DNA of 21,053 bases from positions 1-21,053 of the IMG/VR virus record IMGVR_UViG_3300048834_000370; one strand, given 5' to 3'. A model generated the notes under the pieces. It had not been told where the DNA came from and searched no databases. It worked only from the letters and a program-made list of their open reading frames with translations. Of this stretch, positions 2,623 through 20,986 are shown piece after piece (within the stretch, counting starts at the first letter, position 1; each line of letters starts with the position of its first letter). The DNA is from a virus. The translations under genes were made by a program, and so were the position numbers.

Positions 2623-4124
2623 CAGTCGTCACCCAGCCCGGCCTGGCCGGCCAGGCGCGCCGTATATCCGAGCTTGGCGAGCAGCTCGGCAAGCGCGCCG
2701 GGGTCGAGTTGTGCGACCAGCTCCGGCAGGCGTTCGAGCAGCTCCTCGGCGGTGTCACCGCGCGCGATCGCATCGTCCAGCGCTTGCTGCAGCGTCTGCA
2801 TCCACGGCGCCATCACCGGCCGCCATTCGGACAGCGCTTCGTCCACCAGGGCATCGATCGGGTCACCCGGCCGGCGATCCTGCTCGGCAAAGCTTGCCGC
2901 AGCTGGTTTGCCGTTCTCAGGTGAGTGCGGCTCAACGGGCGCAGCCTTCTTGTCCCACCCATCCCCATACTTCGCCCGCACCGCGTCGAGCGATAGCGAA
3001 AAGCCCATCTCCGACACATTCTTGTCGGTCTCACTCTCGGCTTTCTTGTCCTCTTCGCCTTTGATCTCGCGATACACCCGGCAGCGGCTGAAGCCGTTGT
3101 ATTCACAGATCCACTTGATCAGCGTTTCATTCAGGGTTTCCGAGAGCAGGTCGCTGTCGGCCTGGGTGAGTTCCAGGCGAACGTCCTGCCGCTCCTTGCT
3201 TGCGGCCGCCATCGCGCCACCGGACTTGCTGCGCGCTTCGGTTCCGAGCAGTACGCTGTCGATCCAGTCATCCATGTACTCACACAAGGATTGCTGGGTC
3301 GTAACCGAGCCTGTCAGCTTGGTCTCCAGCAGCTCGATCATCGTGCCTTCAGGCGTCATCACCACGCCGTCGCTGCTGAACGCTTTCAGCGCATCGAACA
3401 GCGTGTTCTTTTCCTTTTGCCCCGCCCCCTTCGGGTATTTGCCCCAGGGTGTGGGTGTGCCAAATCGATCGTTCAGCTTGTTCCAAGCGATGATGCCCTT
3501 GCGCTTAAAGAACACCGGCCAATAGAGCTGCAAGCCGAGGCCGGTGCCGTATGGGTTGTCATCCTCGGGGTTCACCCGGTGAACGATGAACTTGCGTTCC
3601 TCCAACTCTTCGCCACGGATCATATCCGCCTGTGTGAGCAGACGCAGTTGCGGGGCGCGCGTGTCGTCATCCTGCACATAGACAAAGCGCCGCTGCGCGC
3701 GTTTGACTACACGTGCGGGCACCACCCGGTTGTCACTCACCGTCCATATCACTTCAGCCGGAGAAAACCCGACGATCATCGCCTCCATCAAGTCCGAGCA
3801 CAGCCGGTCGAAGTTGAACCCGCCGAGGATCGCCTGCACGGCTTCAGCGTCGCTGGTGCTCTTGCCATCCGCAGGCTGCACCGTCCAGGGGCGGCTGATC
3901 AGCGCGAGAATGCGCTTCTGCAGCCCTGAGAACACCTTGCCGTCGCGCTTCAGATCACGGTAGATCTGCCAGTTGTTGCCATGCTCGCCGAGCAACGGAT
4001 CGTTGGGGCGCACTACCCCCATGAAGATGGGCTCGAATGGGTCGCGCAAGCGGCTTGCGACTTCGGTATTCAGGTCCGGCTTTGCCGGCCGGGTGGTGGC
4101 AGTGGTGGGAGTGGTCTTAGCCAT
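2622..4124 (-). CDS. Portal protein, DUF935 family (Mu gp29-like)
   Basis: This 500-aa protein matches the DUF935 portal family. The portal forms the ring at the head vertex through which DNA is packaged and on which terminase docks. A low-complexity Thr/Pro-rich N-terminus is followed by DPFEPIFMGVVRPNDPLL and YRDLKRDGKVFSGLQKR (residues about 28-70). Also present are a GFSPAEVIW motif and the WNKLNDRFGTPTPWGKYP block typical of the family. The C-terminal 120 residues (after SPENGKPAAA) are charged, rich in Leu and Glu, and probably helical. The start overlaps the terminase stop by 8 bp, which indicates translational coupling. Length is normal for the family and no disruption is visible. Confidence 0.92.
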   Translation of the reverse strand: MAKTTPTTATTRPAKPDLNTEVASRLRDPFEPIFMGVVRPNDPLLGEHGNNWQIYRDLKRDGKVFSGLQKRILALISRPWTVQPADGKSTSDAEAVQAILGGFNFDRLCSDLMEAMIVGFSPAEVIWTVSDNRVVPARVVKRAQRRFVYVQDDDTRAPQLRLLTQADMIRGEELEERKFIVHRVNPEDDNPYGTGLGLQLYWPVFFKRKGIIAWNKLNDRFGTPTPWGKYPKGAGQKEKNTLFDALKAFSSDGVVMTPEGTMIELLETKLTGSVTTQQSLCEYMDDWIDSVLLGTEARSKSGGAMAAASKERQDVRLELTQADSDLLSETLNETLIKWICEYNGFSRCRVYREIKGEEDKKAESETDKNVSEMGFSLSLDAVRAKYGDGWDKKAAPVEPHSPENGKPAAASFAEQDRRPGDPIDALVDEALSEWRPVMAPWMQTLQQALDDAIARGDTAEELLERLPELVAQLDPGALAELLAKLGYTARLAGQAGLGDD

Positions 4125-5520
4125 AGAGGAAGCCTGCGATATCGACGCTTCGGCGCTCGCCCGCGCCGTCGCTCATGAACTCGATCGGAGCGGCGGGATT
4201 GCTTGCCGCATGTATGGCCAGCGCCAGCGCCCAAAACTCGTCAGCATGGCCGTCGGCGGTACGCTCTGCGGTGAATCGAATATTGCCGGCTGCCGTGGTC
4301 TGCTTCGTCACCGCACGAAGGGCGGCACGCGTTTTCGGGTCATAGGGCATGCGCAGCCGGCGGTCTTCCATGCGCCCGCGCACCGGGTAGGCGAGTTCTT
4401 CCTTGACCTTCGGTGTGAAGGTGACCGCCTCCACCCGGTATTCACCGAACTTGTCCTGGGCATCATCGGCCCAGCCGATTCCCAGTCCGGTGGCGTCGAT
4501 GCAGGTGCGATCGCTCTCTTCGATCATCGGATAGATGATCTTTTCCTGGTCGCTCTTGCGCATGTTCTGCAGGCGTTCCACGCGCCGGGTGTAGAGCACG
4601 TCGCCCAGGTCTTCCACCTGCCAGGCCACCGTCAGATCCTGCTTGCGACCGATGTCGATGCCGGTATAGATCCGGCCGCCTTCCCTGCGCTCCCAGTCCG
4701 CGCCGGCCTCATACTCGGCCGACGCGATCAGGTCATATTCCAGAAAGGCCACGTCGTCATCGGCTGGGTTGCACATGAACTCTTGCTGGAACGACTCCTC
4801 GTCCGCGCAGCCGGCGCGCACCAGGTCGAAATAGGCCGCCTCGTCCATCGCCTGGCGCTCGTCGTCATCCGGCAGCATTTGCTGCAGCTTGTAGAGAAAG
4901 CCCTGGTCGAGCGCATCCTGCAGCGTCACCCGGTGTACGCTGATTTTCTTCGGGTTGCCCCGCTCGCGCGCCTCGCGAATCAGCAGATTGAAGAAATTGT
5001 GGCTGCCCCGATGGGTGGAGATCAGCTCCAGGCTGCCGCCCCAGGTGATGCCTGGGTAGGCGATCGCCCATAGCTTGCGCGGGTCCGGGTGCAATGCGAA
5101 CTCGTCCAGGATGCGCCCGCCGCGCTTTCCGGCCTGCGCGTCCGGGTTGCTCGACATGCTGTGAATGCGCTTGCCGGTGGCAAATTCCAGCACGTAGGCG
5201 GATAGACGCTTCTCGGGGTCTATCACCACCTCGCCCAGATCGCGGGCGGCCAGATCCATGATCTTCGCCCACATCTTGCAGTCCTCGACGAAGAGCCGCG
5301 CCTGCAACTCGTCGCGGCTGCTCACCCACTGATCGCGCAGCGCCTTGGCTACCGCTACGCGCTCCACCGCCGGATAGGCTGTGCTCCAGGACAGGCCGAT
5401 CTGGCGTGCCTTCTCCATCGCTTTCAGGCGGCTTTCGTCCTGGATCCACTTCGCCTGATAGGGCAGGAAGATGGCCTCCGGATTCGCGGGGATGATCTTG
5501 GCGTTACCTTTGATTTTCAT
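4117..5520 (-). CDS. Terminase large subunit (Mu gp28-like)
   Basis: This 467-aa packaging motor uses ATP to pump DNA into the head and cuts packaged DNA with its nuclease domain. With the start at 5520, the ATPase motif EKARQIGLSWS lies at residues 36-46 and the Walker B GGRILDEF at 134-141. Nuclease acidic residues are likely D289 (TGIDIGRKQDL), D342 (CIDATG) and D427 (HADEFWALALA). I chose the ATG at 5520 because GGGAG lies just before it and it overlaps the small upstream gene as ATGA. The longer frame to 5598 reads antisense-like basic sequence. The gene sits between gp27-like and portal genes, as in Mu. Confidence 0.93.
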   Translation of the reverse strand: MKIKGNAKIIPANPEAIFLPYQAKWIQDESRLKAMEKARQIGLSWSTAYPAVERVAVAKALRDQWVSSRDELQARLFVEDCKMWAKIMDLAARDLGEVVIDPEKRLSAYVLEFATGKRIHSMSSNPDAQAGKRGGRILDEFALHPDPRKLWAIAYPGITWGGSLELISTHRGSHNFFNLLIREARERGNPKKISVHRVTLQDALDQGFLYKLQQMLPDDDERQAMDEAAYFDLVRAGCADEESFQQEFMCNPADDDVAFLEYDLIASAEYEAGADWERREGGRIYTGIDIGRKQDLTVAWQVEDLGDVLYTRRVERLQNMRKSDQEKIIYPMIEESDRTCIDATGLGIGWADDAQDKFGEYRVEAVTFTPKVKEELAYPVRGRMEDRRLRMPYDPKTRAALRAVTKQTTAAGNIRFTAERTADGHADEFWALALAIHAASNPAAPIEFMSDGAGERRSVDIAGFLYG

Positions 5521-9852: not shown

Positions 9853-10428
9853 TCAGGAAACCTGATCCGGGCGCCATTTCTTGATGAAAGCCGCCACCGC
9901 CTCCGGCCCGCCGGCACTTGCCGCCGCCCACTCATCCCGACGTTGCTGCGCTCCCATCTCGGCCAATGGGGCGAGTTTCTCATGAATCGCCCACCATCGT
10001 TCCCGCTCCGCTTCGTGGTGCTGGTGTAGATCGCTACGCTTCTGACGCTTGCAGATCAGCGCCGCCTCACGATGAATGCGCGCGATATAGCTGGCCTGCT
10101 GCCGGCGGCGGATCGCGCGTGGCTGATGGGCGAGGCGCTGCTCCGCCCGGGTGTTGGCATGGTCCAGTAGCCACTGGATCTGCACTAGAGCTTCGTCAAA
10201 CCGCCCAGCTTGCTGGAGAAACTTGGCCAGGCGAGCGTCCTCGTACAGATCGCCCTGGATCACCTTTGCCTCGTGGAGTAGTGAAATCGCCCGATCCCAG
10301 TCGCCCGCATTCTTGGCCGCCGTCGCCTCCCGGTTAAGGGCCGCATACCGCTCAGCGTCCGCGCTGCGGTGAACCTGAACCTCGGCGGTCAGCGTCAACA
10401 CGGGGCTGTCAAATAGCACCTTTTTCAT
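9853..10428 (-). CDS. Hypothetical protein with TPR-like helices
   Basis: This 191-aa protein is unrecognised. Residues about 24-92 look like two tetratricopeptide-type helical pairs, with NAGDWDRAISLLHEAKVI and then QAGRFDEALVQIQWLL. These repeats usually mediate protein contacts. A basic helical middle (RAIRRRQQASYIARIHRE) and a C-terminal IKKWRPDQVS follow. Its ATG overlaps the repressor stop as ATGA, so it is probably transcribed with the repressor in the lysogen. That would fit a lysogenic-conversion or immunity-associated role, but no function can be stated. Confidence 0.72.
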   Translation of the reverse strand: MKKVLFDSPVLTLTAEVQVHRSADAERYAALNREATAAKNAGDWDRAISLLHEAKVIQGDLYEDARLAKFLQQAGRFDEALVQIQWLLDHANTRAEQRLAHQPRAIRRRQQASYIARIHREAALICKRQKRSDLHQHHEAERERWWAIHEKLAPLAEMGAQQRRDEWAAASAGGPEAVAAFIKKWRPDQVS

Positions 10429-10793
10429 GCCGCCTTGCCTCCCTTCTTCTTCGTCATACAGCAGCCTTCGTATTTCGCGAGCGCGCCAGACGTCGCCTTG
10501 ATGGCCCTCCGGGCATCTGGTGGGCAGTGCCGGTAGTCGTCGAGCAGGGCTTCTTCTTCGCGGGTCAAGGCCGGGGCGACTGGTGCGGCGCCGGCACGTT
10601 GACCAGTGAGGATGTAGAGCACGTCGGCACCTGCCGCCGCAATGGCTGCAAGGTAGGCCGCATCAGGCTGGCGTTCGCCTGCTTCGTAGTTGATCTGCGC
10701 CCGCTTCTGAACGCCGCCTATTTCACCAAAAGCGGACTGACTAAGCCCCAGTCTCTCCCGTTCAGCACGCAAGCGTTGCTCTAAGCTGTCCAT
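10425..10793 (-). CDS. XRE-family repressor (lysogeny regulator)
   Basis: This 122-aa protein has an N-terminal XRE-type HTH (about residues 4-65). RLGLSQSAFGEIGGVQKRAQ comes first, then the sequence NYEAGERQPDAAYLAAI and DVLYILTGQ. A short helical C-terminus ends in a Lys-rich tail. It lacks the LexA/CI peptidase domain, so RecA-stimulated self-cleavage is not expected. It faces the early operon across a 122-bp gap that holds a perfect palindrome in the early promoter, which is the arrangement expected for the lysogeny repressor. Upstream of the ATG there is no good Shine-Dalgarno sequence. Equivalent position to the BcepMu-type repressor. Confidence 0.85.
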   Translation of the reverse strand: MDSLEQRLRAERERLGLSQSAFGEIGGVQKRAQINYEAGERQPDAAYLAAIAAAGADVLYILTGQRAGAAPVAPALTREEEALLDDYRHCPPDARRAIKATSGALAKYEGCCMTKKKGGKAA

Positions 10794-11757: not shown

Positions 11758-12225
11758 ATGGCTCAGCGCACTTCGAAGCCCATGCCAACCAGCTTGAGAA
11801 CCGCGTTCGAAATGGACAAGGCGCACGCGCTCAAGCACAAGCGATTGAACGTCGAGCGCCTCTCGGAGCTGCTCGGCACCACCCCCGCGACGCTCTACAA
11901 GTGGATCGAGACCGACAGCATGCCGATCCGGATGCTGATCGCGTGGCAGCACCTGAGCGGCGCCAACAACGTAGTGCGCTACCTCGCCAGCCGCGAGGGC
12001 GCTGTGGTGATCCAGATCCCCACCGGTCGCACGCCCGACGCTGACGACGTGCACATTCTGCAGGCCACGCTCAACGGTGCGATTGGCGCGCTGCTGGATT
12101 TCATCGCGGGGCGCATGGACCGCGACGCGTGCATGGGCAAGCTCTCGACCGGGTTGGAGTCGCTCGCCTGGCATCGCGCCAACATCGAAAAGTCAGACCA
12201 GCCTGAACTGGAGTTCGGCTCGTGA
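11758..12225 (+). CDS. HTH regulatory protein, CII/CP76-like
   Basis: This 155-aa protein has a helix-turn-helix at about residues 33-56 (RLSELLGTTPATLYKWIETD). PIRMLIAWQHLSGANNVVRYLASREG follows. This resembles phage regulatory proteins of the CII/CP76 type, in which an HTH is followed by a conserved helix and a VVIQIP-like strand. The C-terminal half is helical. AGGA lies seven bases before the ATG at 11758, chosen over an upstream ATG at 11725 with no ribosome binding site. It overlaps the next gene by GTGA. It probably controls early or lysogenic transcription; the family match is moderate. Confidence 0.7.
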   Translation: MAQRTSKPMPTSLRTAFEMDKAHALKHKRLNVERLSELLGTTPATLYKWIETDSMPIRMLIAWQHLSGANNVVRYLASREGAVVIQIPTGRTPDADDVHILQATLNGAIGALLDFIAGRMDRDACMGKLSTGLESLAWHRANIEKSDQPELEFGS

Positions 12226-12530
12226 GCGCCAAATACACGAGCACCAGCCAGCAACGGCTGTTGAAACTCATCCTGGTCATGTTCGGCGACATCGTGACCG
12301 GCTACACCCCCGCCCAGCTCATACAGATGACCGGCCATCGTCCGGACGCCATGACCCGCGACCTGGAAAACCTGGTCACCGCCGGCCTGGCCGAACGTGA
12401 CGAGGACGGCCGCTACCGGCTGACCTCACGCCTGCCGCAGCAGGCAGTGAAGGTGCACGCCGCTATCGGCCGTGCCGAGGCACGCCTGGCTGAAACCCGA
12501 TCCGCGATCCACCGCAATAACGACTACTGA
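12222..12530 (+). CDS. Small winged-helix protein
   Basis: This 102-aa protein reads like an IclR/MarR-type winged helix. A first helix (TSTSQQRLLKLILVMFG) is followed by YTPAQLIQMTG and then the recognition-type helix RPDAMTRDLENLVTAGLAER. The wing is DEDGRYRLTS, and a C-terminal helix ends the protein. It starts with GTG overlapping the previous stop (GTGA), with GGAG eight bases upstream. It is probably a DNA-binding protein of the early operon, but its target is unknown. Confidence 0.7.
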   Translation: MSAKYTSTSQQRLLKLILVMFGDIVTGYTPAQLIQMTGHRPDAMTRDLENLVTAGLAERDEDGRYRLTSRLPQQAVKVHAAIGRAEARLAETRSAIHRNNDY

Positions 12531-12538
12531 GGAAGATC

Positions 12539-13489
12539 ATGACAAGAGGACGCAAACCCACCGCCGCAGCCGAACCCGAGATTCTTGACGCAGGTGCCGA
12601 GGCCAGAACAGAACAGGCGCTGGCCACGGTGCGCGAAGCCGAGCAGGCCACGGCGCTGGCCGTCTCGCAGCATGACGCCGCCGTGCGCGCCGTCGCGTTG
12701 CAACTGGGCTATCAGTTACCCGCGGACTGCACCGACCCGGACCTGATCCAGCGCGACATATCGGCGAACATGCGCCGTTCGGTCGAGGCGTGCCTGGAAG
12801 TCGGGCGCGGGCTACGGGTGTTGAAGGAGGCGTGCGAACACGGGCATTTTGTTGCGCGTCTTGATGTACTCGGGATCGACAAGCATGTCGCCTCCCGCTT
12901 CATGCAGTCCGCAACGAAGTTCTCAAAGTTGCCGTCGACGGCAACTTTGAAGGCCATCGGCAACCAGACCAAGCTCTTCGAAATGCTGGTGCTTGACGAC
13001 GATCAGATCGAGGAACTGGAACTGACCGGCCAGACCGGCGAACTCTCCCTCGACGACGTGGCCACCATGTCAGTGAAGGAACTGCGCGCGGCACTGCGCG
13101 AAGCGCGCGCCGATAACAAGGCCGACAAGGAGCTGCTGGCCGAAAAGAACCAACTGCTCGACGCCGAGCGCGCCAAGTCCAAGCGCATCCACGCCGCGCC
13201 ACCCGACCAGGTGCTTGCCGATCTGGCGAAAGAAACCGCCGAGCGTGTCGTCACGGTGGCCAACACGATCGACACTAGCGTGCGCGGCGCCTTTACCGCC
13301 CTTGCGGAGCACTTCGAAGCGCACGGCACCGACAGCCGGGTGCTGATGACCGGGCACGTGGCGCACATCCAGAAGGTGCTCAATGACTTGCGCGAAACCT
13401 TCATGTTGCGCGACTTCGAAGGCGACAGCACACCCGAGTGGATGACGTATCCGGACCACGACGCGCCTGGCGCAGCAACGGCCAACTGA
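12539..13489 (+). CDS. DUF3102-like early protein
   Basis: This 316-aa protein is mostly helical. A coiled coil at about residues 18-50 precedes a region of DUF3102 character: MRRSVEACLEVGRGLRVLKE, HGHFVARLDVLGIDKHVASR and FMQSATKFSKL. TGELSLDDVATMSVKELRAAL and a long charged coiled coil (about 180-225) follow. Similar proteins sit just before the transposase gene in BcepMu-type phages. GAGGA lies five bases before the ATG. No catalytic motif is seen. A perfect 28-bp palindrome lies within the gene at 12923-12950, encoding SKLPSTATLK. Function is not established; DNA or partner binding is a guess. Confidence 0.7.
   Translation: MTRGRKPTAAAEPEILDAGAEARTEQALATVREAEQATALAVSQHDAAVRAVALQLGYQLPADCTDPDLIQRDISANMRRSVEACLEVGRGLRVLKEACEHGHFVARLDVLGIDKHVASRFMQSATKFSKLPSTATLKAIGNQTKLFEMLVLDDDQIEELELTGQTGELSLDDVATMSVKELRAALREARADNKADKELLAEKNQLLDAERAKSKRIHAAPPDQVLADLAKETAERVVTVANTIDTSVRGAFTALAEHFEAHGTDSRVLMTGHVAHIQKVLNDLRETFMLRDFEGDSTPEWMTYPDHDAPGAATAN
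12923..12950. repeat. Perfect 28-bp palindrome inside a coding region
   Basis: The left arm TCAAAGTTGCCGTC (12923-12936) is followed directly by its exact reverse complement (12937-12950) with no spacer; pairing ends at 12922/12951. As RNA it would form a strong hairpin. As DNA it could be a dimer-binding site. It encodes a loop between two helical segments, where sequence constraint may be low. Confidence 0.9.
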
Positions 13490-13502: not shown

Positions 13503-15239
13503 ATGGGACCGGCAATGATAGACGCCTTGCTCGATGTGCATGCCCGCATGCAGGAAGCCGGCCATGGCGGCAAGGGGGCTGTAATCGACAACGCCTGCCA
13601 GCGCCTGAACATGTCGAGGGCGACTCTTTGTCGCAAGTTAAAGGAGGTAGCAATGCGCCCCGCACGCAAGCGCCGCGCGGACGCGGGCAAGTGCTCGCTG
13701 CCGTTGAGCGAGGCCGAGGTCATCAGCGCGGTGTGGATGGAAGGCTACCGCGCGAACGACAAGAAGATCATGAGCATGGACCTGGTACTCAGGATCGTGC
13801 GGGCCGATGGTCGGGCTCGCGCCGAAGCGGTGGATGCGGATGGCGTGCTTCGCCCTCTGTCCGCCTCGGCCGTGGCGCGTGCCTTGCGGCACTACCGGCT
13901 GCACCCTGAGCAACTGCGCCGGGCCACCCCTGCCGTGCCGATGGGCTCGGACCACCCGAACGACGTGTGGCAGATCGACGCCTCGATCAGCACATTGTTT
14001 TATGTGCCCGACGGGGGCGTGGCCGACATGAGTCCGGCCGAGTTCTACAAGAACAAGCCCGGCAACTTCGAGAAAATCAAGCGCCAGCGGCTGACCCGCT
14101 GGGTCATCACCGACCACTGCTCGGGGGCTATCTTCGTGCACTACACCGCCGGGGGCGAGAGCATCGCGAGCATGGCCGAGGCGCTGCTGGCAGCGATGGC
14201 CGAGCGCCCTGGGCACCAGATGTATGGCGCCCCCTTCAAGTTGATGATGGACCCCGGCGTAGGCGTCACAAGTGCGTTCCGCAATCTGCTGCGCTGCCTG
14301 ATGATCGAGGCGGTCATCAATGCCGTGGGCAATCCGCGCGCCAAGGGGCAGGTCGAAGGGGCGCACAACATTGTCGAGTGTGACTTCGAGAGCGGCTTCA
14401 AGCTCACCCATGTCCCCGACATTGCCTGGATCAACGCCCAGGCCGCGCGCTGGATGCGTTGGTACAACAGCACCCGCATACATTCGCGTACCGGCGTGAC
14501 GCGCTGGGCGAAGTGGATGGAGATCACGTCCCAGCAATTGCGCCTGGTCGACGTGGGCATTGCCCGCCAACTGCTGACCAAGGAGCCGGTCGCCCGCCCG
14601 GTGAATAAGTACCTGCAGGTGCAGTTCGACGGCGCGCTGTGGTCGGTGAAGGCCGTGCCCAACGTGATGATGGGCGAGAAACTGTCCGTCACGTGGAACC
14701 CGCTGCGCCCGAACGCGGCCTTCGTGCTCGACCGTGATGTCGACGGCACCGACGTCCTGATCGAGATTCCAAAAGTCGAGTATGACGAACACGGGTTCGT
14801 GCAGGGTGCGGCGCGAATCGGCCAGGGATACAAGGCTCAGCCGGACACTGTGCTGGAGCGCAACCGCAAGGCTATCGAGCAACTCGCCACCGGGACCGAC
14901 AGTGAGGATGCCGCCCGCGCCGCGCGCAAGGCCAAGGCGATCGCGTTCGCGGGGTCCATCGACCCGTACAAACACCTTGATGACGTACCCGATGTGATCG
15001 CGCTGCCGCGCCGTGGCACGTCGCTCGAACCCACGGTGAGCACGGCCAGCGCCATACCGGAGCGCATCTACAGCCACTTCGAGGCCGCTACCGACCTGCT
15101 GCGTCGCGGCCTGCAGCTCACCGCCGAGCATCACACGCAGATCGCCGCCTGGCATCCGGACGGCGTACCCGAATCCGAGCTTGATCAACTGCAACACCGT
15201 CTCACCGTCCGCGCCGGATTGCGCGTGGTCGGTGAATAA
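13503..15239 (+). CDS. MuA-type DDE transposase
   Basis: This 578-aa transposase should bind the phage ends and catalyse strand transfer for integration and replicative transposition. A short N-terminal HTH-like part (residues 20-50, NMSRATLCRKLKEV) precedes further DNA-binding helices. The RNase-H-like core has likely catalytic residues D159 (VWQIDAS), D250 (LMMDPGVG) and E285 (KGQVEGAH), with the usual 35-residue spacing between the last two. RWYNSTRIHSRTGVTR follows, then a beta-barrel-like domain and a C-terminal region that could contact MuB. It is shorter than MuA (663 aa), in line with BcepMu-type enzymes. Start ATG at 13503, with another in-frame ATG at 13515. MuB follows after 13 bp. 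Confidence 0.94.
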   Translation: MGPAMIDALLDVHARMQEAGHGGKGAVIDNACQRLNMSRATLCRKLKEVAMRPARKRRADAGKCSLPLSEAEVISAVWMEGYRANDKKIMSMDLVLRIVRADGRARAEAVDADGVLRPLSASAVARALRHYRLHPEQLRRATPAVPMGSDHPNDVWQIDASISTLFYVPDGGVADMSPAEFYKNKPGNFEKIKRQRLTRWVITDHCSGAIFVHYTAGGESIASMAEALLAAMAERPGHQMYGAPFKLMMDPGVGVTSAFRNLLRCLMIEAVINAVGNPRAKGQVEGAHNIVECDFESGFKLTHVPDIAWINAQAARWMRWYNSTRIHSRTGVTRWAKWMEITSQQLRLVDVGIARQLLTKEPVARPVNKYLQVQFDGALWSVKAVPNVMMGEKLSVTWNPLRPNAAFVLDRDVDGTDVLIEIPKVEYDEHGFVQGAARIGQGYKAQPDTVLERNRKAIEQLATGTDSEDAARAARKAKAIAFAGSIDPYKHLDDVPDVIALPRRGTSLEPTVSTASAIPERIYSHFEAATDLLRRGLQLTAEHHTQIAAWHPDGVPESELDQLQHRLTVRAGLRVVGE

Positions 15240-15252
15240 CCCGAGGGGGAAT

Positions 15253-16443
15253 ATGCGACTGAAACTGAAACGGCTGCTGACCGTGATCGGCAGCAACCAA
15301 TCTGATCTGGCCCGCGCGGTATCTGTGAGCCCGGCGACGATTGCGCAACTGGCCAATCACGGCATTTGGCCCCGGAGAAATCCCCCGACCGGGGTGCTGC
15401 GCAGGGGGGTGATCGCGCATTTGCGCGCGCACGGCGCAACGGCCGAGCAGGTCGAATCTGCATTTGAGGAGTGGCCTGTGACGCGCAGCAACGCGCCCCA
15501 GGCCGATGACCCAACCACCGAGCAAGATGATGAGGACGAACACATGCTACTACGAAACGAGACGCTGACACATGACGCACGAGAGCACTTCAGCTTGCCG
15601 CGCTCGCCCTTTGTCGATGACATCGCGACGATCGCCGATGTGTTCGTGTCAGCGAGCACCCGGCGCGCTCGCGCGGCCCTGATGGATGCCGCGCTCAACC
15701 AGGGCTTTGTCGCGCTGGTGGGTGAGTCGGGCAGCGGCAAGACCACCCTGCGTGAAGAGCTGGAGGAACGCATCCGCCTTGAGTCGCGTCCGGTCACCAT
15801 CATCAAGCCCTACGTGATGGAGATGGAAAGCTCGGACGCGCGCGGCCAGTACATGAAAAGCTCGCAGATCGCCGAGGCCATCGTGCACACGCTGGCGCCG
15901 GGCGAGTCGGTACGGCAAAGCACGCAAGAACGCGCCCGCCAAGTGCACGAGCTGCTCACCAATAGCCAACGGGCAGGCTACGCCAACCTGCTGGTGGTCG
16001 AGGAGGCGCATCGCATGCCCAAGACCACGCTGCGCCACCTGAAAGGGTTCATGGAAATGAAGGCGGGGTTGCAGCGCCTGCTGGGTGTGGTGCTGATCGG
16101 CCAGCCGGAGCTGGACGCGACCCTGAGCGACAAGCTCGCCGACGTACGCGAGATCGTGCAGCGCTGCGAGCGGCGCGAAATGCTGCCGCTCGACGAAGAC
16201 TTGCCGGCGTACATACAACACAAGTTCGACCGTGTTGGCGTGCGCGCGGGCGATGTCTTTGCCGATGACGCGTTTGATGCCATCCGTAGTCGCCTGGTGC
16301 GCATCCCGCGCGGCGGCACCATGGCCGAGGCGCGCAGCATCTGCTACCCGCTGGTGGTCAACAACCTGGTGGTGCGCGCGCTCAACGCGGCGGCGGCGGT
16401 GCGGTTCCCCAAGGTCGATGCTCAAGTGATCAAGGGGTGCTGA
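15253..16443 (+). CDS. MuB-type AAA+ ATPase, target-site selector
   Basis: This 396-aa ATPase binds target DNA and activates the transposase. An N-terminal HTH (residues 1-60, SNQSDLARAVSVSPATIAQL) matches the known MuB design. An acidic linker leads to the AAA+ core: Walker A GESGSGKT at 157-164 and Walker B LLVVEEAH at 246-253. Further features are a VVLIGQPELDATL sensor region and arginines in VQRCERREM. A GAGGGGGA ribosome binding site precedes the ATG at 15253; the open frame upstream overlaps the transposase. It is longer than MuB (312 aa), through the linker and the C-terminal part. Together with the transposase it forms the transposition machine. Confidence 0.93.
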   Translation: MRLKLKRLLTVIGSNQSDLARAVSVSPATIAQLANHGIWPRRNPPTGVLRRGVIAHLRAHGATAEQVESAFEEWPVTRSNAPQADDPTTEQDDEDEHMLLRNETLTHDAREHFSLPRSPFVDDIATIADVFVSASTRRARAALMDAALNQGFVALVGESGSGKTTLREELEERIRLESRPVTIIKPYVMEMESSDARGQYMKSSQIAEAIVHTLAPGESVRQSTQERARQVHELLTNSQRAGYANLLVVEEAHRMPKTTLRHLKGFMEMKAGLQRLLGVVLIGQPELDATLSDKLADVREIVQRCERREMLPLDEDLPAYIQHKFDRVGVRAGDVFADDAFDAIRSRLVRIPRGGTMAEARSICYPLVVNNLVVRALNAAAAVRFPKVDAQVIKGC

Positions 16444-19387: not shown

Positions 19388-20200
19388 ATGAGCATGTGCA
19401 TCTACCACGGCAACTGTGCCGATGGCTTCGGAGCCGCCTGGGTTGTTCGCAAGGCGATGGGAGACATTGAATTCCACCCTGGCAAGTACCAAGAGCCGCC
19501 GCCCGACGTGACGGGCAAGGACGTGGTGATGGTGGATTTCAGCTACAAGCGCCCGGTGCTGATTGAGATGGCCGAGAAGGCCAACAGCATCTTGGTTTTA
19601 GACCACCACAAGACTGCAGCGGAAGACCTGCTTGATCTTCCAGCGAACGTGACAGCCAAGTTCGACATGGCGCACAGCGGCGCGATGCTGACATGGGAAC
19701 ATTTCTTCCCCGGCCAGGAACCGCCGCCGCTTCTGCTGCACATCGAGGACCGCGACCTGTGGCGCTTCGCGCTCCAGAACACGCGCCAGATTCAGGCGAA
19801 CGTCTTTTCCTTCCCATACGACTTCCAAGTGTGGGACACGCTCATGGCGGCGGCGCCGGCAGCACTGGCGGCCGAAGGCGAAGCGATCGAGCGCAAGCAC
19901 TTCAAGGACATTAGCGAACTGCTCGGCGTGACCACGCGGGAAATGGTGATCGGTGGGCACCGCGTGCCGGTGGCAAACCTGCCCTACACGATGAGCAGCG
20001 ACGCCGGGCACGAAATGGCCAAGGGGCGCCCGTTCGCCGCCTGCTATTGGGACACGCCGAATGGCCGGGTTTTCAGCCTGCGATCGAACGACGAAGGCGT
20101 CGATGTCTCCGAGGTGGCGAAACAGTACGGGGGCGGCGGGCATCGCAACGCGAGCGGCTTTACGGTGAGCTTCGCAGCGGCGACGGCGTTCGAGGTTTGA
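19388..20200 (+). CDS. DHH-family phosphoesterase of phage type
   Basis: This 270-aa protein has the fold of DHH/DHHA1 phosphoesterases, which hydrolyse phosphodiester bonds in small nucleotides or single-stranded nucleic acid using Mn2+. Visible motifs are YHGNCADGFGAAW (residues 6-18) with D12, VVMVDFSYK with D50, LVLDHHKTA with the D72-H73-H74 signature and HIEDRDLWRF (D121, D123). Near the C-terminus is the DHHA1 glycine motif GGGGHRNASGF (248-258). All key residues are present, so it should be active. AAAGGA lies upstream of the ATG at 19388. Such genes are frequent in phages beside methyltransferases. The natural substrate is unknown; a nucleotide-signal hydrolase with an anti-defence role is speculation. 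Confidence 0.85.
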   Translation: MSMCIYHGNCADGFGAAWVVRKAMGDIEFHPGKYQEPPPDVTGKDVVMVDFSYKRPVLIEMAEKANSILVLDHHKTAAEDLLDLPANVTAKFDMAHSGAMLTWEHFFPGQEPPPLLLHIEDRDLWRFALQNTRQIQANVFSFPYDFQVWDTLMAAAPAALAAEGEAIERKHFKDISELLGVTTREMVIGGHRVPVANLPYTMSSDAGHEMAKGRPFAACYWDTPNGRVFSLRSNDEGVDVSEVAKQYGGGGHRNASGFTVSFAAATAFEV

Positions 20201-20278
20201 CGCACAACGCTCCGCATGAGGGGCCGGGCGCGGCATCATCGCGCACGGTCCCACTCGATGCGGTTGTTGGGGGACGCG

Positions 20279-20986
20279 ATGCGAAGTGACACCGTTGGAA
20301 CTTGCACTCTTTACCTGGCCGACTACCGGCAAGTGCTGCCGCTGCTGCAGGGAGTGACCGCTGTGGTGGCAGACCCACCCTACGGCAACGACTACCGGCA
20401 AAAGCGAAGCCGAGACAAGCTGGTGAGGCCGGACACGACACACGCGGCAATTGTGGGCAACGCGGAACCGTTTGACCCGCGCCCGCTGCTGCAGCTTGCG
20501 CCGACCGTGATTTTGTGGGGCGCGAACTATTACGCCGACAAACTGCCTGCAAATGGGAAGTGGTTGGTATGGGACAAGCGCGAGAACACCACGCCCGACG
20601 ATGGCGCGGATGTTGAGATGGCCTGGACGAACTTGCGCGGGGTGCCGAGGATGCACCGGCAATTGTGGCGCGGGATTTGCCGTCGAGGCGAAGAGAACGT
20701 GAGCAAGGGGGCGAAGAAACTGCACCCGAACCAGAAGCCTGCAGCGTTGATGGATTGGTGCCTCGATCAGGCAAAAGTCGGCGCTGGCGACACGGTGCTT
20801 GACACGCACATGGGGAGCGGCACAACCGGCCTTGTGTGCCTGCGGCGCGGGGTGCGGTTCATCGGGTGCGAGATTGACCCGGTGCATTATCAGACGGCGG
20901 TGGATCGGCTCAAGGCCGAGTCCCCCAACGCTAGGTTGAGCGGACCGCAACGGCCCGCACAGGAGGTGGAAGATGGGACAAAGTAG
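20279..20986 (+). CDS. DNA methyltransferase (N4-cytosine/N6-adenine), beta-type order
   Basis: This 235-aa enzyme transfers a methyl group from AdoMet to an exocyclic amino group in DNA. The catalytic motif IV DPPYG is at residues 32-36, near the N-terminus. HPNQKP is at 149-154 and the AdoMet motif I DTHMGSGTTGL at 175-185, followed by RFIGCEIDPVHY. This order is that of beta-class enzymes. The target-recognition part is very short, as in compact phage methyltransferases. No restriction enzyme gene is adjacent, so it is probably an orphan that protects phage DNA or regulates. The ATG at 20279 with GGGGGA upstream is chosen; an ATG at 20258 would add seven residues. The stop overlaps the next gene by 14 bp. 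Confidence 0.88.
   Translation: MRSDTVGTCTLYLADYRQVLPLLQGVTAVVADPPYGNDYRQKRSRDKLVRPDTTHAAIVGNAEPFDPRPLLQLAPTVILWGANYYADKLPANGKWLVWDKRENTTPDDGADVEMAWTNLRGVPRMHRQLWRGICRRGEENVSKGAKKLHPNQKPAALMDWCLDQAKVGAGDTVLDTHMGSGTTGLVCLRRGVRFIGCEIDPVHYQTAVDRLKAESPNARLSGPQRPAQEVEDGTK

Follow-up and report, generated by a model that had tools for sequence, protein, structure and literature searches.

A palindrome inside a DUF3102-type gene of a B3-like transposable phage as the probable binding site of the encoded protein

A perfect, spacer-free palindrome lies within the coding sequence that precedes the transposase gene of a viral genome fragment, which raises the question of what reads it, and as DNA or as RNA. 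The first-pass annotation had offered either a dimer-binding site, such as a transposition enhancer or operator, or an mRNA hairpin tuning expression of the downstream transposase. We refer to the whole 21,053-nt stretch analysed as the window; the features discussed are the following.

10425-10793, minus strand: divergent phage repressor (HTH_3)
12222-12530, plus strand: winged-HTH regulator upstream of the DUF3102 gene (phrog_1368), whose residues do not track the arms of the palindrome
12539-13489, plus strand: DUF3102-type gene (phrog_1748) of 316 aa, with a predicted ParB/Noc/KorB-like DNA-binding domain and long helices, the putative reader of the site (profile matches, AF2 model)
12845-12871, plus strand: first helix of the helix-turn-helix, residues 103-111 (AF2 model)
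12881-12919, plus strand: codons of the recognition helix, residues 115-127, with specificity residues K115, H116 and S119 (AF2 helix 115-127, mutual information, paired changes)
12923-12950, no strand: perfect 28-bp palindrome, putative dimer site of the DUF3102 protein (relatives keep a symmetric site; arms track the recognition helix)
13503-15239, plus strand: transposase A, following directly in the early operon (phrog_310 transposase, E 2e-96; IS481-like)
15253-16443, plus strand: transposition ATPase, or B protein (AAA_22; phrog_296)

The palindrome and the gene that contains it

The palindrome reads TCAAAGTTGCCGTC followed directly by GACGGCAACTTTGA, its two 14-nt arms being 100% complementary with no spacer, and its half-site can be written CAAA-GTTGC-CGTC. 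It falls entirely within the open reading frame 12539-13489 (codons 129-138), exactly as first described, and is the only palindrome of the window to reach the scan threshold. Its score of 14 exceeds the 10-11 reached by the top palindromes when the window was Markov-shuffled ten times, and a perfect palindromic 28-mer would be expected by chance about 8e-5 times in 21 kb (a rough figure), which bears out the earlier remark that it is unlikely by chance. A search of the window for further copies, as the annotation had suggested, returned none even at 3 mismatches, with 0 expected.

The DUF3102 gene stands in the order repressor (divergent), CII-like gene, small winged-HTH gene, DUF3102, transposase A, transposition ATPase. 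GemA and Mor genes are found farther along the window and fit a B3-like, Mu-type transposable phage. In Fc02, a relative of B3, the lytic early operon includes ner, transposases A and B, gemA and mor, and is transcribed from pE after induction with a transcript level that falls distally (PMC9936078). The early region of the window ends with a DHH-family phosphoesterase-like protein (19388-20200) and an N6/N4 DNA methylase (20216-20986).

The window protein matches the phrog_1748 profile with an E-value of 1e-79. Its own match to DUF3102 (PF11300) has an E-value of 0.014, below the Pfam cut-off, and PF11300 is matched by 75 of 86 relatives at E<=0.1. In the AF2 model (pLDDT 88, pTM 0.60, built from 83 sequences), a predicted helix-turn-helix is formed by helices 103-111 and 115-127 and long helices occupy the C-terminus; residues 115, 116 and 119 sit at the start of the recognition helix, and the loop that follows it (128-135) is largely encoded by the palindrome. 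Structural neighbours of the middle part include Noc-NBS (Z 6.7), Spo0J-parS (6.1), ParB-parS (5.6) and KorB-operator (5.1), Z-scores of 5-7 being modest (<8) and similar to that of an unrelated match to Raf1, with Foldseek E-values of 1 or more. A ParB CTPase domain is not apparent in the model, where residues 1-61 form essentially a single long helix, and a ParB domain is absent from the 25 most frequent Pfam matches of the 86 members. A PDB sequence search gave coiled-coil matches only, and among the scanned early proteins ParA was not matched, the AAA+ transposition protein being the only hit.

Conservation and placement of the site in relatives

Among 214 distinct homologues of the gene, 168 contain a CAAA-N18-TTTG quasi-palindrome, whereas shuffled versions do so in 2.2% of cases; as the scan required ends close to CAAA/TTTG and no more than 4 asymmetric pairs, the conservation of the ends is partly built in. 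Among 101 distinct in-gene sites, 68 have 0 or 1 asymmetric pair. First-round relatives carry, at the same codons, TCAAA-N5-CGTCAACG-N5-TTTGA, with N5 arms that differ from phage to phage and stay largely complementary while the encoded amino acids change too. Even at 23-36% identity, B3, Fc22, Ps59, KP12, PhiKM and Mae-JY22 have perfect palindromes of other sequence in the same gene, which in the first five lie at the equivalent place. The central dinucleotide is pyrimidine-purine (YR) in all sites and self-complementary in most, and the codon phase is constant in 164 of 167 in-gene cases, the same phase being used where the site lies in the repressor gene or in certain other host genes. There is about one site per phage genome, and none is dispersed in host genomes. 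The palindrome is ancient and under selection. Across relatives its inner bases vary and its symmetry is maintained; instead of relatives that encode the same residues with codons breaking the symmetry, the opposite is seen, residues changing jointly while the symmetry stays.

Two observations were made in passing. The record of Klebsiella phage KP12 (OM835952.1) is filed under Vequintavirinae yet contains an early region of B3-like transposable-phage type, and its taxonomy line looks wrong. One relative (L208) has its DUF3102 gene frameshifted at the palindrome and another contig (L207) starts at it; a hairpin forming there may provoke deletion or break assembly.

Where the DUF3102 gene has no site of its own, one is often found elsewhere in the early region, mostly in the interdomain linker of the divergent repressor gene (L014, L019, L026, L057, L079, L212, L214, L293, L295, L298, L301, L303, L316, L317 and L321); the repressor gene of the window, unlike that of these relatives, is devoid of the palindrome. 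In L224 and L227 the site lies directly upstream of the DUF3102 gene, L021, L038 and L042 have an additional site directly upstream of its start, and in L306, L307 and L310 it is found at about -2.7 kb, a position resembling that of the repressor copies. L192, L223 and L023 have no site in the DNA examined.

Several genomes have more than one copy. In Microcystis phage Mae-JY22 (L191) one site sequence occurs three times. Two of these own-type sites (3235-3305) lie 45 bp apart and in frame within a nuclease-like gene, in the linker that follows its signal peptide; a viral-contig search with the protein of this phage gave no hits. L222 has two near-identical sites at 2275-2745, in an upstream gene of 156 aa and in the other open codon phase (KCANVGAFE), while its DUF3102 gene has no site. 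Non-cognate sites are found additionally in L218 and in L159, an Accumulibacter MAG. The latter has a cognate site within its DUF3102 gene (691-716 of L159). It also has two sites of different class in tandem and, between genes, a further copy (4660-4722 and 5366-5391) whose arms are exactly the GTTGC of the window. These extra L159 sites are possibly decoys, or relics of other phages.

A residue-base code linking recognition helix and arms

When the relatives are sorted by arm sequence, the arms turn out to be predictable from the recognition helix of the protein: covariation among them ties arm bases 6-7 to residue 119 (codon 12893-12895 in the window) and base 8 to residue 116. At position 119, Q goes with (A/T)GCG, R with (A/T)CG, A or V with TGT, K with GGTG and S with GTTGC; at position 116, R or H goes with G at arm position 8, K with C, and S or T with T. 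The window, with K115, H116, S119 and GTTGC arms, belongs to the S class, as the code expects. Column 119 has the highest mutual information of all (about 1.45-1.48 bits, 1.45 with base 7), followed, among residues that are not encoded by the palindrome itself, by 116 and 115. The best columns of TnpA and of the wHTH protein, used as controls, reach 0.35 and 0.41 bits, against 1.48, and both proteins were rejected as readers of the site on account of couplings no higher than these.

Paired changes tell the same story. Across 83 disjoint nearest-neighbour pairs, with neighbours defined on the rest of the protein, residue 119 and arm bases 6-7 are concordant in 80 (40/2/1/40, p=4e-20): the bases differ in 40 of the 42 pairs in which the residue differs, and are identical in 40 of the 41 in which it is identical. 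Residue 116 and base 8 change together as well (p=3e-13), and each of the two residues ranks first among all protein columns for its bases. A code trained on in-gene sites alone was then scored on 13 distinct sites in other genes, and gave log-odds of 48.7, where permutation gave a mean of -42.6 (sd 16.5, p<=5e-5), which removes the explanation that the coupling is a coding artefact; the sites of L026, L307 and L310 likewise fit. For L247, TGTC arms were predicted beforehand and a matching site is present in its repressor gene. The site of L248 also agrees with the code, without having been predicted, and for L249 and L231, two of the three advance predictions, no site was found within 13 kb.

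Helix and site also travel together. Between the B3-type phages L195 and L202, a segment of about 180 bp comprising the helix-turn-helix and the palindrome has 56-71% identity while its flanks have 93-100%. At the level of sequence, this comparison shows helix and site swapped together as a cassette of about 180 bp between otherwise near-identical phages.

Possible roles of the site and known systems

Symmetric sites kept while their inner bases diverge, inner bases that follow residues of the helix, and the joint movement of the two as a cassette lead us to conclude that the palindrome is very probably the cognate site bound by the DUF3102 protein, the product of the surrounding gene. A homodimer of this protein, with its putative helix-turn-helix of ParB/Noc/KorB type, would probably bind the site as DNA. 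The dimer-binding site of the first-pass annotation is thereby strongly supported by covariation, with the amendment that the candidate binder is the DUF3102 protein and not a repressor, Ner or the transposase. The mRNA hairpin put forward beside it, or a hairpin in single-stranded DNA, acting as an attenuator in the early operon and maintained by base pairing, appears highly improbable. The arms do covary with complementarity retained, and the succession of A-tract, stem and T-tract resembles a terminator; but mismatched pairs are A:C in 22 cases and G:T in 20, showing no bias toward G-U wobble, the centre is always YR and usually self-complementary, neither of which a loop needs, the arms obey a code set by protein residues, and sites occur in untranslated or intergenic DNA and in a divergently transcribed gene, thus in both transcription contexts. 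An RNA hairpin or intrinsic terminator was rejected on mismatch types, centre and residue code. We give equally little credence to a mobile palindromic repeat (RPE/REP-like) or a functionless quasi-palindrome correction: the additional or displaced copies seen in other genes of L191, L222, L218 and L159 and the nearly constant codon phase would suit it, but it is countered by the presence of about one site per phage genome, with none dispersed in those of hosts, and by arms that follow the recognition helix across many independent pairs. A repeat dispersed in host genomes was likewise rejected, with 1-3 copies per genome, nearly all at prophage loci.

Two further explanations share more with our own. 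The DUF3102 protein could bind the site as an autoregulatory operator or roadblock that throttles transcription of tnpA and tnpB in the early operon, or of the repressor; the binding relation is then the same, and the difference lies in the role. We regard this as possible, if rather less than likely: sites directly upstream of the DUF3102 start in L021, L038, L042, L224 and L227 favour it, as do the dwindling distal transcripts of the Fc02 operon after induction from pE (PMC9936078), whereas a site within the DUF3102 gene would be expected to regulate in the opposite sense to one within the divergent repressor gene, yet the two positions substitute for one another between relatives. Self-immunity of the BstA/aba kind, in which the protein would attack DNA lacking a cognate site and the in-gene site would protect the phage and drive diversification, seems unlikely to us. 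Cognate pairing and a hypervariable cassette of helix plus site speak for it, the short DNA element aba, part of the bstA locus, conferring cognate self-immunity (PMC8585504); site classes differ in three of four pairs of co-resident prophages, a sample too small to use, and the remaining pair has identical sites. Against it, the DUF3102 gene belongs to a lytic operon, BstA being expressed constitutively in lysogens, and the window protein has no PADLOC match, on which ground membership in a known defence family was rejected.

For the binding site of the DUF3102 protein, we consider it plausible, at somewhat under even confidence, that it functions as a phage-specific cis mark, like parS or a transposition enhancer but tolerant of position, which would nucleate, on the DNA of the phage itself, a complex for replicative transposition early in the lytic cycle. 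Such a mark is favoured over a fixed-position operator because the site, usually single in a phage, may lie in the DUF3102 gene, in an intergenic stretch or in the opposed repressor gene, and is confined to the early region; this flexible position, by itself, is what points to a role beyond binding. Placement within the gene may keep reader and target linked despite the frequent recombination of these phages, in a loop that presumably tolerates sequence change. More tentatively, B3/BcepMu-type phages might carry a swappable, self-contained specificity cassette through which each phage's replication-transposition machinery recognises its own genome only in mixed infections; the cassette would then comprise a ParB-like reader with a single target inside its own gene, diversified among phages.

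We found no description of this site in the literature on DUF3102 and B3-like phages. We propose that DUF3102/phrog_1748, previously without assigned function, is a DNA-binding family with defined specificity residues, which would give a specific function to a large uncharacterised family that, in many transposable phages, is encoded next to the transposase. The covariation extends over about 180 related phages, and about 115 different site sequences supply a natural recognition code. The target lies within the gene of its proposed reader, next to the recognition codons, so that the two are passed on and exchanged as a unit. How B3-like phages discriminate their own DNA or control transposition thus becomes a testable question.

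Among known systems, ParB/parS, Noc/NBS and KorB/OB resemble the DUF3102 pair in combining a palindromic site with a helix-turn-helix, the predicted fold being modestly similar (Z 5-7). Those proteins read their palindromes through the recognition helix, a mode that covariation supports for DUF3102, and specificity appears to be switched by few residues in both, four being needed to turn ParB into Noc (PMC7383237). The DUF3102 protein differs in showing no N-terminal ParB CTPase domain and no recognised ParA partner, and its site, of 26-28 bp with CAAA at the ends, is longer than parS, NBS or OB, occurs singly as a rule and is located in its own gene beside the recognition-helix codons. BstA/aba is similar in that the locus contains a short DNA element cognate to the putative DNA-binding protein that it encodes, with specificities varying by phage; aba, in contrast, has 63 bp with direct CCCGCC repeats and no palindromy described (PMC8585504). 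BstA also belongs to another, KilA-N-like protein family and is expressed in lysogeny rather than from a lytic operon, and KilA-N is not among the Pfam families listed for the 86 DUF3102 members. The internal activation sequence of Mu, its transposition enhancer, is an internal site in the early, regulatory region of a transposable phage, as is the palindrome of the window, and is bound by MuA and the repressor. We know of no DUF3102-type reader in Mu, and the reader proposed here would be a separate protein, distinct from both the transposase and the repressor.
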